In this document: in pieces, positions 3,287 through 10,335 of the stretch
Numbering within the stretch: position 1 is the stretch's first letter
Layout of the letters: every line of letters begins with the position of its first letter
From: Vampirovibrio chlorellavorus
GTDB taxonomy: Bacteria; Cyanobacteriota; Vampirovibrionia; Vampirovibrionales; Vampirovibrionaceae
Assembly (NCBI GenBank): GCA_903866275.1
Contig: CAIPMU010000019.1
Span: forward strand, 1-34,762
Length of the DNA stretch: 34,762 bases
Reading direction: 5' to 3'
Made by a program: the position numbers and the translations under genes
Notes under the pieces: model-generated
The model's input: the letters and a program-made list of their open reading frames with translations, nothing else
Database searches by the model: none
What the model was told of the DNA's origin: nothing

Positions 3287-3664
3287 ATGACTTTGCAAAC
3301 GTTTTCCGCCGGGGAAGTGATTATTGCCGAAGGGACATCGGGTAGCCATTGTTTTTTGATTGAGGAAGGACAGGTCCTGATCTGCAAAACGCTCTTGGGT
3401 AAGCAACGAATTCCCATTGCCACCCTGGTCAGCGGCGAGTTATTTGGCGAAATGTCCCTGTTTGACGAAAGCGGCATTCGTTCCGCTTCGGCCATTGCCG
3501 AAACCGAGGTGACGGTCCAGCTCATTCCTCGCGAGACTTTGAGTCAAGCCTTGAGTGAAACCCCTACCATTATTCAAGCCCTGTTAAAAACACTCAGTTC
3601 ACGCCTCGCGCAAACCTCACAACAGAACACGGACTTGAAAGCCATTTTGAAGACTGGCCAATAA
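3287..3664 (+). CDS. Stand-alone cyclic-nucleotide-binding domain protein
   Basis: The 125-residue protein is essentially a single CRP/PKA-type cNMP-binding domain. The phosphate-binding cassette is clear at residues 50-70: GELFGEMSLFDESGIRSASA, with the conserved Glu55 and Arg65 that contact the cyclic nucleotide in the family. The barrel precedes it (AGEVIIAEGTSGSHCFLIEEG), and a short helix (LLKTLSSRLAQTSQQ) follows. There is no helix-turn-helix, so it is not a full CRP-like regulator and probably acts on a partner protein. The ATG follows GGGAGGCCATTTTTCA. It stands alone, with a -10 box 90 bases upstream and a stem-loop after its stop. The actual ligand is unknown. Confidence 0.88.
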   Translation: MTLQTFSAGEVIIAEGTSGSHCFLIEEGQVLICKTLLGKQRIPIATLVSGELFGEMSLFDESGIRSASAIAETEVTVQLIPRETLSQALSETPTIIQALLKTLSSRLAQTSQQNTDLKAILKTGQ

Positions 3665-3778: not shown

Positions 3779-3949
3779 TCAGAAGCGCATTTTCAAACTT
3801 CTGTAACCCATATAGCCTGCTGTCGCCAGACACATTAATGTCGAAGGCTCCAGTCCGGGCGTAGAATGAGGACTAGCCGCCATTGCTGGTAGCGCGGAAG
3901 TTGCCACCAGAGCAATCAATAATACCAGAGAATGAGATTGATATTTCAT
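3779..3949 (-). CDS. Tiny exported protein with exosortase-type C-terminal sorting signal
   Basis: From the ATG at 3949 (GGGGG about 6 bases upstream) the product is 56 residues. A signal peptide (MKYQSHSLVLLIALVATSA, cut likely after AMA) leaves only about 32 mature residues. Nearly all of that is a PEP-CTERM-like tail: the motif TPGLEPS, a hydrophobic stretch (TLMCLATAGYMGYRSL), and a basic end KMRF. The tail aligns with that of the mini-protein at 4134-4355 over TPGL[ED], L..LA[ST].GY.G...LK.R. The exosortase gene lies 600 bases away on the other strand, so this is a likely substrate. A longer ORF from 4039 exists, but its extra 30 residues do not look like a signal peptide. Confidence 0.65.
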   Translation of the reverse strand: MKYQSHSLVLLIALVATSALPAMAASPHSTPGLEPSTLMCLATAGYMGYRSLKMRF

Positions 3950-4133
3950 TGAGACCCCCACAGTTGTTATTTGCAGTATGGCATTGATGATGGATGACTT
4001 AAATCCCCCGTTGGATCTAAATCTCCTGAATTCAACCAATAATCAGAAAAAATTCGGATTTACATTTGAACATAATTTTAAAACCAAAGTAACACGAAGT
4101 GCTTTCTATGGATTGATAGCGTGATGCAGCCTT

Positions 4134-4355
4134 TTACTTTCCGATCAACCGGCGGGCTTTGAGCCATTGGGCACCAAAATACCCAGTAGAGGCAAGCGCG
4201 GAAAGCATTGGCGCATCCAGACCAGGCGTAGGACGAGGTCCACCATTGCCATTGCCGTTACCATTGTTGCCGTTGCCATTACCGGCATGAACAACAGGCA
4301 TCAGAAAGAACAAAAAAATCAGACTCACAGTTAAAAGCAACCCTTGCTGACGCAT
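4134..4355 (-). CDS. Tiny Asn-Gly-repeat exported protein with exosortase-type C-terminal sorting signal
   Basis: The product has 73 residues. A signal peptide (residues 1-24, ending VVHA) is followed by an Asn-Gly repeat (GNGNGNNGNGNGNGG, residues 25-39), then TPGLDAP, a hydrophobic segment (MLSALASTGYFGAQWL) and a basic tail (KARRLIGK). This tripartite tail is the layout exosortases recognise. The usual Pro-Glu-Pro is replaced by Pro-Gly-Leu-Asp. A good ribosome site (GAGGG, 9 bases before the ATG) supports the start. The Asn-Gly run is encoded by hexamer-like repeats at about 4243-4283, which could vary in number by slippage. It is divergent from the exosortase gene, with 189 bases between them. 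Confidence 0.7.
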   Translation of the reverse strand: MRQQGLLLTVSLIFLFFLMPVVHAGNGNGNNGNGNGNGGPRPTPGLDAPMLSALASTGYFGAQWLKARRLIGK

Positions 4356-4544
4356 GTGAATTACCCTCAGTTGTCGTGCTATCTCTTTTATTATTACAGC
4401 AGTAACAAGATAAATTAACCCCTCATTTATAGGAGCCCCTAATTCTCCTATCGAACGTTACAATATATATAAAGTCGCAGCTGATCGCTCATGACAGACA
4501 AAGTCATCAAAGCAGGTCTCCCCTAGCCTCAGACTGGAGCCCGA

Positions 4545-6224
4545 ATGGCCAGCCAAGCAGAATCTGGTTCAACACAAGATCCACACCCATTGCCCCCAGA
4601 CCCTTTCAAAACTGCCAGGTCGCAGTTTAGCCTGAGTGTGGGCGTAACGCTGCTCTTGTTCATCACACTAGCCTTTCCCACCCTAACCACATGGTGGACC
4701 ATCCTCAATCAACGCCCCCTATCTGAGAACACGCCCCAATACCTCACCGTTCTGTTTTTGCTGGGAAGGCTTTGGCAAGCCGGAGCCACACGCAAACACC
4801 TCCCCCCGGTGAATGTTTCCGGTAACAGGGCAGGCATACTTGCATTGGGTATCACTGGCCTGGTCTATGTTGTCAGTGTCTGTCTGTCTATTAAAGTACT
4901 CATGTTTACCAGTCTGCTGGCCTTGCTGGCCAGTTTGTGTCGCATCAGCCTGGGTCGGGTTATCTTTCAGCGGTGTATTCCCGGCTTTCTGTTTGCGCTG
5001 TTTTTGTTACCCCAGTTCCCCACGGATATTCGGACCGCCATCAGCCTTCCTTTACAGCTCATTTCAACCCAACTGGCCACGGGACTAGCCTCTCTGTTTA
5101 TTCCCATTCAGACCCTGGGGAACATTTTCTACATTCGGGGGGAGGCTTTTGAAGTGACCGTGGCCTGTAGCGGCCTGAATACCTGGGTGGGTTATCTGTT
5201 TGCGGGAATGTTGGGGATGTTCATGGGCCATTTCAGCTGGGGAAGAATGCTACGCCTCCTGATCGGGGCGCCATTGCTGGCTCTGACGGGGAACGCCCTT
5301 CGACTCTGGATTACTGCGCTAGTCGCTTACTGGGTGTCCGCCGACACGGGCATGGCCATTCACACCAATTTGGAATTCGTGTTGTTTCCGCTGGGGTTGT
5401 GGGGCATGGTGCTGGCCGAACGAGCCATTCAACGGCGCTGGCTTCAGACACCTGCCATGGCCGATTCGGCTTTAACCCCAGGAGATCCAGTTTCCGAGAG
5501 GGCTGCCAACGCGCAAACCAATATAAACGCTGTCAACCCTGAATGGCGCCCTGCACGCTTTACCACAAAGGGCACCGTGCTGTTGGTTCTCATGCTGATT
5601 ACGCTGGGCGTGTGGTTGCCGCAATTCAATCCGCCCGCCGATAGCACAAATCAAAGCCAGTCAGGGAAAACTTTACCGGCGATTCCCATGAAGATTGGTG
5701 ATTGGAAAGGTCATGACCTGCCCCTGCTCCATGATGAGGCCAGTATTCTGGCCCCGGCCCAGCTCACCAGCCGGGAGTATCAGCTGCAGCCTGGCCCTTC
5801 TGCCGACCGCAAGGCGCCACAGTCCATTATTTGGCTCAACCTGCTGGAAGCCACCTCCATGAACACGCTGCACAATCTGGTAGACTCTCTGATTGCTTCG
5901 GGAGCCAAACCCACACTGCAGGGAACCCTGACACTGTCCACCCCAAAAGGCCCCTTGAAGGCTTCCTGGTATCACTGTGTGGATGAGACAGGAAAACCCT
6001 ACTATTTGCTGCTGTGGTACGAATGGCCCGGTGGCAATGCGGATAACCGCTGGCTATGGTACTGGCATGTCCTCAGCCTGAAGCTCCAGAAACGGGAGCC
6101 CACCTGGCGACTGGTAGAAATTGCCGCACCGGCCAGCGAGAATGACGCCAGTCCGGCTCAGGCCCAAAAACTGGCTCAGCTGAAAGCGTTTGCTGCAGAA
6201 TTGTACGCTAAAACCACGCCCTAG
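4545..6224 (+). CDS. Exosortase fused to a C-terminal EpsI domain
   Basis: Of 559 residues, the first ~295 form a multi-pass membrane exosortase. This is a cysteine transpeptidase-like enzyme that cleaves C-terminal sorting signals of exported proteins. The catalytic triad is visible: Cys208 (TVACSGLNTW), Arg253 (GNALRLW) and His273 (MAIHTNLEF). After a linker and another membrane segment (about 342-360), residues 376-555 match EpsI/DUF3485 (PMKIGDWKGHDLPL, later ASWYHCVDETGKPYYLLLWY). EpsI is usually a separate gene beside the exosortase in exopolysaccharide loci, but fused forms are known. Start chosen at ATG 4545 with GGAG 6 bases upstream. Two candidate substrates lie divergently upstream and a glycosyltransferase follows. 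The subtype cannot be fixed from sequence alone. Confidence 0.92.
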   Translation: MASQAESGSTQDPHPLPPDPFKTARSQFSLSVGVTLLLFITLAFPTLTTWWTILNQRPLSENTPQYLTVLFLLGRLWQAGATRKHLPPVNVSGNRAGILALGITGLVYVVSVCLSIKVLMFTSLLALLASLCRISLGRVIFQRCIPGFLFALFLLPQFPTDIRTAISLPLQLISTQLATGLASLFIPIQTLGNIFYIRGEAFEVTVACSGLNTWVGYLFAGMLGMFMGHFSWGRMLRLLIGAPLLALTGNALRLWITALVAYWVSADTGMAIHTNLEFVLFPLGLWGMVLAERAIQRRWLQTPAMADSALTPGDPVSERAANAQTNINAVNPEWRPARFTTKGTVLLVLMLITLGVWLPQFNPPADSTNQSQSGKTLPAIPMKIGDWKGHDLPLLHDEASILAPAQLTSREYQLQPGPSADRKAPQSIIWLNLLEATSMNTLHNLVDSLIASGAKPTLQGTLTLSTPKGPLKASWYHCVDETGKPYYLLLWYEWPGGNADNRWLWYWHVLSLKLQKREPTWRLVEIAAPASENDASPAQAQKLAQLKAFAAELYAKTTP

Positions 6225-6435: not shown

Positions 6436-6560
6436 CTGTAAATCCTGTCTTAAATTTTGTTTTTATTTAGATTGAGTGTTCGAATCTTGGGGAATTTTTC
6501 ATAGACAGGGTATCAGTTATCAGGAATGAGGCACACGAAATTCCTGCTTCGAAGGTGAAT

Positions 6561-7952
6561 ATGTCGCAAATTTTATATCTTGCACAGTTTTTCAGCCTGG
6601 ATATGGAACCGGGCGGGCAAGGGCAACGACACTATAAACACGCACTGGCCCTGGCCAATTTTGGCCATCAGGTGACCGTCATCACCGGCGGCGGTACCAC
6701 CATGTGCCCGGACAACACGGATAACCGGGTCAAGCTTGAAAACATTGATAGTTTAACCGGAGGCACCCGCAGTAACGAACTCCCGCCCAACTTGCGTGTG
6801 ATTCGCCTGAGTGTATCGGCTATGAAAAAACGATCGGTGCTCAACCGGGCACTGGCCTACTTTGATTTTAGTGGCAAGGCTCTCTGGACAGGTCTCAAGC
6901 TGGCCTTTCAGGAGAAACAGCAGTTCAGTTTTGTGCTGGGCTCTTCGCCGCCCTTGCTGGTTGCTCTGGTGGCTTATCTACTGGCACTGGTGTTCAAGGC
7001 CAGTTTTTATCTGGAAGTGCGGGATCTCTGGAGCCAGACCATGAACGCCAACGGCTTTATCACGAACCCGTGGGCCATTGCCCTGAACCGGGCAATCGAA
7101 AGCTGGCTGTATCGGCACAGCGAGCGAATTATTACACTCTCCCCTGCCTTCAACGACGAAATTGAAGCGCAAACACCGGGCGTGCGCCACAAAATTGTCT
7201 ATATCCCCAATGGGGCAGACATGGAGTTCTATCAGCACCCGCAACTGTGGCATGGCAGTTATCTGCGTACCACGAATACGAATCGGTCCCGATTCCAGAT
7301 CAATTACGCCGGTGTGTTCAGCGATTACACCCACCTGGAAACCCTGTTGGAAGCCGCACAAATTGTGCAAGCTCAGCACCCCAAAATTCATTTCAATCTG
7401 GTCGGCGGTGGGTATCAGGCAGAGCAACTCAAAACCTACGCCCAGCAACTCCAGCTGGAAAACGTCACCTTCTGGGATGCGCTACCGAAAAGCCGCATCA
7501 GCAAGTTCCTGATGGAAGGTGATCTGTCCATTATCAACTATCGCAATCTGAGCATCTTCGGGCAGGTGTTGCCCAACAAGCTCTACGATTATCTGGCCGC
7601 AGGACGACCGATTCTTGCCGCCGCCCCGCCCGGAGAAGTGTGCCGGGTGATTGAAGAAAGCAACGCGGGCAAGACCGTGCCGCCCGAGGATGCAGCGGCA
7701 TTGGCGGAAGCCATGATCTGGTTTTATCAGAATCAGGTCACGGGCACTCAGATGGGCTTGAAAGGTCAGCAGTATGTACTGCGGCATTTCAACCGCAAAC
7801 ATCTGATGGATCAAATTGTGGATCTGTTCCCCAAGGTGATTCCCTTGCCCTTACCAGAGCAGGACGAACAAGCGGACTTCGATCTGGACAGTGCCCTGAA
7901 TCTGGGCAGCAGCGCCAATGTGGCTGGCAGTAAGTGGCAACCCCTGCCCTGA
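6561..7952 (+). CDS. Family 4 glycosyltransferase (WcaI/WbuB-like)
   Basis: The 463-residue GT-B enzyme probably transfers a sugar from a nucleotide donor during polysaccharide assembly at the inner membrane. The N-terminal acceptor half shows PGGQGQRHYKHALALANFGH, then VTVITGG, typical of GT4. The linker carries IVYIPNGADMEFY. The donor-binding half has INYAGVFSDYTHLETLLEAA, FNLVGGG and the loop LPNKLYDYLAAGRPILAA followed by GEVCRVIEESNAG, where the conserved acidic residues bind the nucleotide sugar. The C-terminal ~35 residues are acidic and probably disordered. ATG 6561 was chosen because GAAGG lies 5 bases upstream; an in-frame GTG two codons earlier is less likely. Its place after the exosortase gene fits a surface-polysaccharide role. 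Sugar specificity is not visible. Confidence 0.9.
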   Translation: MSQILYLAQFFSLDMEPGGQGQRHYKHALALANFGHQVTVITGGGTTMCPDNTDNRVKLENIDSLTGGTRSNELPPNLRVIRLSVSAMKKRSVLNRALAYFDFSGKALWTGLKLAFQEKQQFSFVLGSSPPLLVALVAYLLALVFKASFYLEVRDLWSQTMNANGFITNPWAIALNRAIESWLYRHSERIITLSPAFNDEIEAQTPGVRHKIVYIPNGADMEFYQHPQLWHGSYLRTTNTNRSRFQINYAGVFSDYTHLETLLEAAQIVQAQHPKIHFNLVGGGYQAEQLKTYAQQLQLENVTFWDALPKSRISKFLMEGDLSIINYRNLSIFGQVLPNKLYDYLAAGRPILAAAPPGEVCRVIEESNAGKTVPPEDAAALAEAMIWFYQNQVTGTQMGLKGQQYVLRHFNRKHLMDQIVDLFPKVIPLPLPEQDEQADFDLDSALNLGSSANVAGSKWQPLP

Positions 7953-8088: not shown

Positions 8089-8898
8089 TTAATGGTGCAT
8101 CATTTTATTCCAGCCTTGCTCAATGTGTTTGCCGGTGTCTTTAACACCCTGCTCCACTTTTTGCACCGGAGACTCCTTGGCGGGGGCCGGTTCAGTTTTC
8201 TTCACCGATTTCTCAGGAGTCTGACGCACTTCACTCTGCCCTTTTTTGACGGGCTCTGATTTTTTAGGTTCTGTTTTCATGGGCTCAATCATTTTTTTCT
8301 CAGATTCTTGTTTCTCGGTTTTGGTGTTGACCATGTTTTTTTCAGTCATCGTCTGGGGTGCTTGCCGAACTTCGCTTTGGCCCTTCTTCACCGGCTCGGA
8401 CTTTTTGGGCTCAGTGATTGTTCGGCTCGACGCTCCTTCTCCTGTTTTAGATTGAATCACATGCTTTTCAGTTCGGGTCTTCGTGGTGGTCACCGGGATC
8501 TGGCGGATCTCGCTTTTGCCTTTTTTGACCGTGTACTCACCGCTGGGCTTGGTGATTTTCTGATGCACCGTGGTCTTGTGCGTGGTGGTAACGGGCTTCA
8601 TCCCATGCTCGGCTTTTTCCTGCGCCGGTGTCTCATGCTCAGCCTCTTCTTTTTCCCGAACCATGCTTTTACCCGTTTTAACCGGTTGTCCAGAGGGTGT
8701 GGCTGGCCCGGTAGAAGACCTGGATTCCACTTTCTGGCTAGTGGTTACCTTGCTTTCCGGCTTCATCGGCTTTGCCGATTCTGGTTGCTGCATTTGCGCG
8801 GATACCAGCATCGGGCTCAGACTCATCAAACTGGACAACAAGATAGCACCCATCCGCTGCGGGCAGGTCATACGATGCCAAACGAACTGAATCATCAT
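8089..8898 (-). CDS. Exported Lys/Glu/Thr-rich repeat protein
   Basis: The 269-residue protein has an N-terminal signal peptide (hydrophobic MGAILLSSLMSLSPMLVSA, cut likely near residue 35). A low-complexity chain rich in Lys, Glu, Thr, Pro and Ser follows. A unit near KKGQSEVRQxP recurs three times (KKGKSEIRQIP, KKGQSEVRQAP, KKGQSEVRQTP), each preceded by EPKKSEPV or similar and followed by a Thr-rich stretch. The C-terminus (VEQGVKDTGKHIEQGWNKMMHH) is a short amphipathic helix. No cysteine follows the predicted cleavage site, so it is not an obvious lipoprotein. AGAGGAGAG lies just upstream of tandem ATGs at 8898 and 8895. No known family; a highly charged, probably disordered periplasmic or surface protein. 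Confidence 0.75.
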   Translation of the reverse strand: MMIQFVWHRMTCPQRMGAILLSSLMSLSPMLVSAQMQQPESAKPMKPESKVTTSQKVESRSSTGPATPSGQPVKTGKSMVREKEEAEHETPAQEKAEHGMKPVTTTHKTTVHQKITKPSGEYTVKKGKSEIRQIPVTTTKTRTEKHVIQSKTGEGASSRTITEPKKSEPVKKGQSEVRQAPQTMTEKNMVNTKTEKQESEKKMIEPMKTEPKKSEPVKKGQSEVRQTPEKSVKKTEPAPAKESPVQKVEQGVKDTGKHIEQGWNKMMHH

Positions 8899-9018: not shown

Positions 9019-10335
9019 TTACTGGTTAACCTGCACCGTAATGGGCTGGTCCAGTTTAATTTCCAGTTTGTCACCGGAACTCACCGTGACATCCGTGCCC
9101 TTTTGCGCTGCGGCAGCCAAAGCGCCAACCCCGGCACCCACTGCGGTGCCATAGATTGCACCCTTACCCACCTTGCCGCCAGACAGTGGGCCCATCGCCG
9201 TTCCCAGCGCAGCGCCCAAGCCAGCCCCAATGCCGGTGGTCCCCAGGGCTTTTAAAACACGGCCCTTGGTGGTGCCGCCATGCAACAGGCCATCTACGGT
9301 ATCCACAGAGCCCTGAATGGCGTAGCTCTGGCCATCCGGGGTGATGATCTTGTCGAAATTGATGTCCATCGTGGCGGGTTTACCCGTGCGACCGGCGGCC
9401 TCAATCTGACTGACCCGTCCCACGATGTGACTACCGGCGGGAATAATCACCTGATTGTCCGAACTCAGTAAAGGCTGATCGGTAGTCAGATGAATCTCAT
9501 CGCCCACCTTGTTCAATTCCGAACTCAGCACGCCCTGCGTGATAGTGCCGGTAAACTTGGTGTTGGCAGGCACCACGGCGACCCGCCCCTGCAAAACCGT
9601 CGTGCCATTGGGGAGCGTTGATACACTACCAGTCGATGATCCAGACGGCACGCCCATTCCTGGGGCCGTGCCAGATTGACCGGCGTTTGCCAGGTTCAGG
9701 CGCTCCCGCAGATTTTCGACCATTGCAGCCACTTCTGCCCTGGTGGCGGGCTGCAAGGGGGTAATGGCATTACCCATCGCCGGATCGTTGGCATAGATTC
9801 CGTTTAAAATTACCGCAGCCACAGCCGGACGGGCCCAGGCTGGGATACTGCCAGAATCGTTGTACGCTGCCAGTGTCTGGTTAATCGCAGCGTCGTTGGG
9901 CATGGGCATCCGCGACGCATTGGCCAGAGTGGCCATGGCCTCAGCGCGGGTAATGCTCTGGTTAGGCATGAACGCCCCGTTGGGGTATCCGCTGACCAGA
10001 CCGGACGCCCGCACGGTTTCAATCGCCGGATACGCCCAATTGGTGCGTGGCACATCGTTAAAGGTTTCCGTGCCGGATGCCACCGACGCAAGGCCCAGCG
10101 CCTTGACCAGCATGGCCGAGTATTCGGCACGGGTCACCAGTCCCTGAGGCCGGAAGGTGCCATCGGGATAACCGGTAATAATCCCTTGACTGGAGAGGGT
10201 CTGAATGGGTGTTTGGGCCCAGTTGGACTGGGTATCCTGAAACACGGCTGCCGAGGCCATTAAGGTCATTGCGGGGGCTGCCAGCAATTGCACCGTCATG
10301 GCCAATGTCAGCCATTTTGTTGATTTAGGGTTCAT
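9019..10335 (-). CDS. SLH-domain surface protein with C-terminal glycine-zipper region
   Basis: The 438 residues begin with a signal peptide (about 1-30, ending ASAA). Three SLH repeats follow at about 32-80, 92-145 and 155-215. The first two carry the hallmark GYPDGTFRP and GYPNGAFMP followed by TRAE; the third keeps PLQPATRAE. SLH domains bind cell-wall-linked polymers beneath the outer membrane or S-layer. The C-terminal half (about 250-360) is a beta-rich domain (GRVAVVPANTKFTG, IIPAGSHIVGRVSQIEA) similar in pattern to TrbI/VirB10-type folds. A glycine zipper (GIGAGLGAALGTAMG, then GTAVGAGVGALAAAA) and a last beta segment follow. No OprB porin barrel is evident. AGGAG precedes the ATG by 7 bases. 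Confidence 0.85.
   Translation of the reverse strand: MNPKSTKWLTLAMTVQLLAAPAMTLMASAAVFQDTQSNWAQTPIQTLSSQGIITGYPDGTFRPQGLVTRAEYSAMLVKALGLASVASGTETFNDVPRTNWAYPAIETVRASGLVSGYPNGAFMPNQSITRAEAMATLANASRMPMPNDAAINQTLAAYNDSGSIPAWARPAVAAVILNGIYANDPAMGNAITPLQPATRAEVAAMVENLRERLNLANAGQSGTAPGMGVPSGSSTGSVSTLPNGTTVLQGRVAVVPANTKFTGTITQGVLSSELNKVGDEIHLTTDQPLLSSDNQVIIPAGSHIVGRVSQIEAAGRTGKPATMDINFDKIITPDGQSYAIQGSVDTVDGLLHGGTTKGRVLKALGTTGIGAGLGAALGTAMGPLSGGKVGKGAIYGTAVGAGVGALAAAAQKGTDVTVSSGDKLEIKLDQPITVQVNQ

Follow-up and report, generated by a model that had tools for sequence, protein, structure and literature searches.

The window, by which we mean the whole stretch of 34,762 nucleotides analysed here, belongs to a 3.0 Mb genome of the genus Vampirovibrio, a group of cyanobacterial relatives with an algal predator among them. 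The locus contained a gene for an exosortase with a fused EpsI-like region and, on the opposite strand, two genes for miniature proteins (Table 1). Both mini-genes carried a purine-rich stretch ahead of the ATG, which read GGGGG for the 56-residue protein. A simple scan of the divergent intergenic region found no sigma-70-like promoter, the promoter/terminator scan being uninformative, and neither Rfam nor the plasmid sequences gave a match. The GT4-type glycosyltransferase adjoining the exosortase is tied to the system only by its position, and no homologue of it was found at the other loci of the exosortase clade described below. Among the further neighbours, a 125-residue protein adjoining the mini-genes (3287-3664, plus strand) matched only the cyclic-nucleotide-binding part of CRP-type regulators and is too short to fit the DNA-binding domain, a 269-residue ORF (8089-8898, minus strand) had no Pfam match, and an SLH-domain protein with a C-terminal glycine zipper (9019-10335, minus strand) showed weak similarity to iron uptake porins.

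Table 1. Features of the exosortase locus, in positions of the window.
Feature	Position	Strand	Basis or remark
Miniature candidate substrate, 56 aa: TPGLE tail after a signal peptide and the 5-residue linker ASPHS	3779..3949	-	ATG at 3949, inside longer ORF 3779-4039
Tail of the 56-aa protein, TPGLEPSTLMCLATAGYMGYRSLKMR	3785..3862	-	Tail profile searches
Miniature candidate substrate, 73 aa: TPGLD tail after a signal peptide and an 18-residue Asn-Gly linker	4134..4355	-	AxA-type site by sequence
Tail of the 73-aa protein, TPGLDAPMLSALASTGYFGAQWLKAR	4152..4229	-	Tail profile searches
Intergenic region of 189 bp separating the divergent 73-aa and exosortase genes	4356..4544	.	Sequence
Exosortase of 559 aa, EpsI-like region fused at the C-terminus	4545..6224	+	PF09721
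Exosortase (EpsH) domain	4653..5411	+	PF09721 match
Codons of Cys208, Arg253 and His273	5166-5168, 5301-5303, 5361-5363	+	Triad invariant in 8/8 clade members
EpsI/DUF3485-like region, fused in the window	5580..6146	+	PF11984, 24.4 bits against a cut-off of 26.1
GT4-type glycosyltransferase adjoining the exosortase	6555..7952	+	PF13692/PF00534

The enzyme of the window is a member of the exosortase superfamily and lies outside every named type. It matched PF09721 with 96.8 bits (curated cut-off 25.7, E 1.8e-27), which was the single match to this family in the window genome, and it passed the exosortase/archaeosortase signature TIGR04178 (29.6 against 23 bits) and failed the cut-off of TIGR02602 8TM_EpsH (59.8 against 105.55 bits). 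None of the named Xrt types in NCBIfam (XrtA, B, D, N, V, W and others) scored above its cut-off, the best being XrtW with 65.3 against 425 bits, and the relatives likewise reached none of the named types. In the tree of 35 exosortases of the class, eight members formed one clade with support of 100/100, four of them from genomes of the genus Vampirovibrio (the window genome, G001, G003 and G004, the last being Vampirovibrio chlorellavorus NCIMB 11383, LAPX01000005) and four from another family (G047, G062, G076 and G143). The enzymes of G001, G003 and G004 were also exosortase-EpsI fusions, with 33-36 % identity to that of the window. The catalytic triad named in the first-pass annotation proved exact in its positions, and the alignment showed Cys208, Arg253 and His273 to be invariant in all eight clade exosortases. 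The fused EpsI domain is probable: the PF11984 match, over residues 346-414, is slightly below the cut-off and is backed by homologous stand-alone ORFs that follow the exosortase in three relatives (L085, L086, L014), one of them with a weak DUF3485 match of its own. AlphaFold2 with three sequences gave a model too poor for use (pLDDT 42.6, pTM 0.33), and no relative was found among solved structures.

The clade was narrowly distributed. In the other family it was present in the four genomes named above out of 50 searched, and no further genome among the 382 class or 386 phylum genomes drawn gave a strong match, PF09721 itself being matched in 41 of 289 genomes of the class. The exosortases of G287 and G556 (family f12) matched the clade profile weakly, and no mini-protein was seen near them in 12 kb of G287 (L067) and less than 4 kb of G556 (L146). 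G002, a genome of the same genus without the clade enzyme, carried an XrtT-type exosortase (344.8 against 250 bits, L065:7891-9027), whose target was not found in the stretch examined around it. Most of the class exosortases examined lay just downstream of a protein of 800-1100 residues with a VPE[PSA]-type tail (L015, L072-L074, L076-L084, L088-L089). The target protein at L015 gave weak, sub-cut-off matches to the MSEP-CTERM and XrtN-system models, and G010 encoded a classic PVPEP protein of 118 residues.

The 56- and 73-residue proteins had been described as a signal peptide, a short linker and a tripartite tail and little else, and the ORF coordinates, the AxA-type sites and the tail alignment bore this description out. 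The two tails aligned without gaps, with 13 of 26 residues identical and TPGL[ED] in both. Among 20,000 block shuffles that kept the tripartite composition, none equalled the score or the identity of the window tails. PF07589 matched the tail of the 56-residue protein weakly and below threshold (11.5 against 20.7 bits). Across the clade, every copy of the mini-protein had a hydrophobic N-terminus and an AxA-type signal-peptidase site before the linker, as judged from the sequence pattern rather than by a trained predictor, and every tail was ordered by sequence into the motif, the hydrophobic segment and the basic cluster. The full length was 55-76 residues in most copies, and the tail was kept across low-complexity linkers that ranged in length from 4 to about 55 residues. 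The motif is separated from the predicted signal-peptidase site by only 4-5 residues in three proteins and by about 16-55 in the remaining copies, so that the product would be a peptide and not a protein.

In each of G001, G003 and G004, one Asn-Gly-repeat mini-protein, orthologue-like to the 73-residue protein of the window, was encoded divergently adjacent to the exosortase, with the tail TPGLALVA[IV]AALSSASY[MT]GYKRLK. A mini-protein was also found in each of the four other-family genomes whose enzymes group with that of the window. These were detected by a generic scan for a signal peptide with a C-terminal hydrophobic tail, before the tail profile was applied to those genomes. The protein of G047 read APGLDPATLALL... 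after a Gly/Asp repeat and had a twin-arginine-like N-terminus, G076 encoded two tandem copies (APEVDAGMLALL...), and the sequences of G062 and G143 read APELDGGMLSSL... and TPELDGGMLSSL..., respectively. The mini-protein at L014:10293-10757 (minus strand) combined a long Gly/Gly/Asp repeat with a twin-arginine-like N-terminus; the others looked Sec-type. At the other-family loci, a protein of 370-394 residues with no clear Pfam or NCBIfam match adjoined the mini-gene in three genomes (L085:8951-10135, L086:355-1467 and L075:2-436, the last cut) and is a possible third component there, and a protein of 248-249 residues from an unassigned family lay beside the exosortase in two (L085:6598-7347, L086:3166-3912).

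The mini-proteins and the exosortase occurred together. Mini-proteins with such a tail were present at the exosortase locus in 8/8 clade genomes, with ten intact copies, and a further copy in G143 was probably cut by the contig end (E 0.007). The tail profile gave ten matches with E < 1e-11, every one at the exosortase loci of the eight clade genomes, and none in G002 and G090, the two genomes tested that are without the clade enzyme. This combined search speaks for uniqueness and not for discovery because the profile contains these tails. The profile built from the two window tails alone, searched in related genomes as the first-pass annotation had proposed, ranked the three same-genus tails as the first non-training matches among 12,108 ORFs (E 2e-4 to 2e-3). 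With the profile of the other-family tails, the 73-residue protein of the window was the top non-training ORF at an E of 0.036, not significant alone, and the tail similarity across the two families, if taken by itself, is weak. No other genome of the wider class gave a tail match better than 1e-3. Three matches of the A2 tail profile in other genomes (E 1e-3 to 1e-2) lay inside larger frames, left the motif uncovered and were rejected as chance. Exosortase/EpsI and the mini-protein were the only genes common to the loci of both families; as no other neighbour recurs between them, the pair survives the loss of synteny. The pairing claimed at the outset was thus found at every locus of the clade, and neither a clade genome without the tails nor a classic PEP-CTERM set matching the enzyme was seen.

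The mini-genes are under purifying selection. The pN/pS was 0.06 for G003 and G001, 0.19 for G004 and G003, 0.29 for G062 and G143, and 0.32 for the tandem pair of G076. The tail was more conserved than the rest of the mini-protein in every pair compared (88 against 65 %, 87 against 58 % and, for the tandem pair, 100 against 84 %).

The sorting motif was broader than the two window proteins indicated. TPGL[ED] is common to both of them, and the conserved signal across the clade was [TA]-P-[GE]-[LV], usually followed by Asp or Glu; the acidic residue after TPGL is not conserved, because the V. chlorellavorus-group tails of G001, G003 and G004 read TPGLA. PGL occurred in the Vampirovibrio-genus genomes and in G047, and PEL or PEV in the three others. 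The mini-protein tails lack the near-invariant Pro-Glu-Pro of PEP-CTERM proteins, in agreement with the departure from that motif which had been noted earlier; the PEL and PEV tails nevertheless show the signal to be related to the PEP tail and not a separate kind, and its breadth within the clade lets it grade into PEP-like tails. The P-[GE]-[LV] range of this one clade bridges PEP-like tails and PGL tails reminiscent of the archaeal PGF.

In G004, and by synteny in G003 and G001, the mini-gene immediately preceded a set of Wzz-, Wza-, glycosyltransferase, epimerase and sugar-transferase genes encoded on its own strand. The exopolysaccharide linkage is clear only in these three V. chlorellavorus-group genomes and is suggestive, not general, because the Wza homologues of the window genome sit on other contigs, one glycosyltransferase being adjacent, and it fails for the other family. 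For the matrix anchor proposed in the first-pass annotation, the one hint is the exopolysaccharide operon of the V. chlorellavorus group.

The system of the window appears, from the sequences compared, to be a dedicated pairing of an exosortase with adjacent and co-distributed putative substrates, previously unnamed; in the literature searched no paper paired an exosortase with Vampirovibrio, and descriptions may exist elsewhere. We favour the reading, with a probability of roughly 0.7, that a dedicated exosortase system cuts the mini-proteins and transfers a short peptide to an acceptor. The anatomy of the proteins, their gene pairing, their co-occurrence with the enzyme and the selection on their genes are the observed part of this reading. 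By analogy with the exosortase family, the mini-protein would be exported by means of its signal peptide, which signal peptidase I would remove at the AxA-type site, and the hydrophobic segment and basic end at its C-terminus would hold the stub in the inner membrane. Relying on Cys208 together with Arg253 and His273, the exosortase would then cleave at the P-[GE]-[LV] motif and hand the short peptide ahead of the motif (about 5 and 18 residues in the window, 4-55 in the clade as a whole) to an acceptor, for which a lipid or a precursor of a surface polysaccharide is the most likely candidate. The processed peptide proposed in the first-pass annotation is plausible on the signal-peptidase-like sites of every copy and the minimal linkers. 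The 4-5 residues before the motif in a few mini-proteins leave little for a passenger, which counts against a dedicated system, as do the failure of the exopolysaccharide linkage in the window genome and the other family and the weak tail similarity across the two families. A more specific version, in which the exosortase acts as a peptide maturase/ligase and two cuts leave a peptide of 4-20 residues covalently on a surface glycan or lipid, is tentative and, at about one chance in four, rather doubtful; exosortases would then be able to produce peptide decorations in addition to anchoring proteins.

The main rival is that the mini-proteins are small membrane hairpins, with an uncleaved N-terminal helix, a short periplasmic loop and a C-terminal helix, acting as accessory or regulatory subunits of an exosortase/EpsI complex. 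Strict pairing and adjacency would look identical for such a subunit, and the loop of just a few residues in some copies, with a length of 55-76 residues in most, would suit it; against this, the AxA-type pattern precedes the linker in every copy, the tail follows the tripartite order of known sorting signals, the tail is kept while the low-complexity linkers range from 4 to about 55 residues, and the two paralogues in each of two genomes suit substrates better. We therefore regard the hairpin as unlikely. Still less probable is that the exosortase mainly serves larger surface proteins whose tails have diverged beyond the reach of the profiles, and that the mini-proteins are minor or degenerate members of that set. 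Many exosortases do have many targets, with a median of eight PEP-CTERM proteins per genome (PMC1569441), but neither the tail profiles at lax thresholds nor PF07589 found anything else in the window genome, enzyme-target adjacency is typical of single-target systems such as rhombosortase (PMC3237569), and the mini-genes are under purifying selection.

Two further explanations can be given very little weight. A pilin-like coat, in which the mini-proteins would assemble into filaments, had been suggested earlier and has in its favour the small size and the hydrophobic segments only; by sequence the hydrophobic segment is C-terminal, before a basic end, unlike a pilin helix, which is N-terminal and follows a prepilin-peptidase site, and no pilus assembly gene was present at the loci examined, so that this suggestion was dropped as highly improbable. 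Short ORFs are common and these are short, which raised the question of chance open frames or of a chance likeness among hydrophobic C-termini, but the 0/20,000 result of the composition-keeping shuffles, the conservation in seven other genomes and the pN/pS well below 1 refute it, leaving it the least likely of all.

Exosortases are established to act on C-terminal tripartite tails and to sit in exopolysaccharide loci (PMC1569441, PMC12188702). As in the PEP-CTERM/EpsH (XrtA-type) system with EpsI described by Haft et al. 2006 (PMC1569441), the clade has a PF09721 enzyme with the Cys/Arg/His triad, an EpsI-like region fused or adjacent, targets with an N-terminal signal and a tripartite tail, and, in 3/8 genomes, adjoining exopolysaccharide genes; unlike it, the clade lacks Pro-Glu-Pro, has one or two targets instead of many, these being almost only signals, and reaches the cut-off of no named exosortase model. 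In the same class, the exosortase loci with large proteins likewise have enzyme and target side by side, one pair per locus, but their targets have 800-1100 residues with VPE[PSA] tails and their enzymes fall outside the clade of eight. Archaeosortase A, for which proteolysis with lipid anchoring is known, shares with the clade a P-G-hydrophobic motif followed by a hydrophobic segment and a basic end, and both Sec and Tat substrates (PMC7157517); it differs in being archaeal, in Phe at the third position and in its large substrates, whereas the enzyme of the window has a bacterial host and a P-G-L motif, with P-G grading into P-E within its own clade. Cyanoexosortase B of Nostoc is likewise an exosortase from the cyanobacterial side, lies at a Wza/Wzc/Wzy locus and takes part in polysaccharide adhesion, but the Nostoc genome has 35 PEP-CTERM genes and the enzyme of the window misses the CrtB-type models; the linkage of exosortase targets has been discussed there as being to polysaccharide "or some other molecule" (PMC12188702).

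What is odd about this pairing is how short the mature chain is predicted to be, at about 4-55 residues. Tiny proteins that hold an export signal and a sorting tail and are encoded next to the enzyme suggest that very short surface peptides are made or anchored by this exosortase, and a system whose one or two targets consist of little beyond signals is as simple as could be wished for. If the mini-proteins are processed, the complete mature product would be a peptide short enough for mass spectrometry, and a mass shift would reveal the acceptor. Because one enzyme clade spans P-G-L and P-E-L/V tails, the recognition rule of exosortases would be widened. The attachment pad of Vampirovibrio on Chlorella is of unknown composition (PMC4451040), and we speculate that the mini-protein system may be a candidate surface factor for this attachment.
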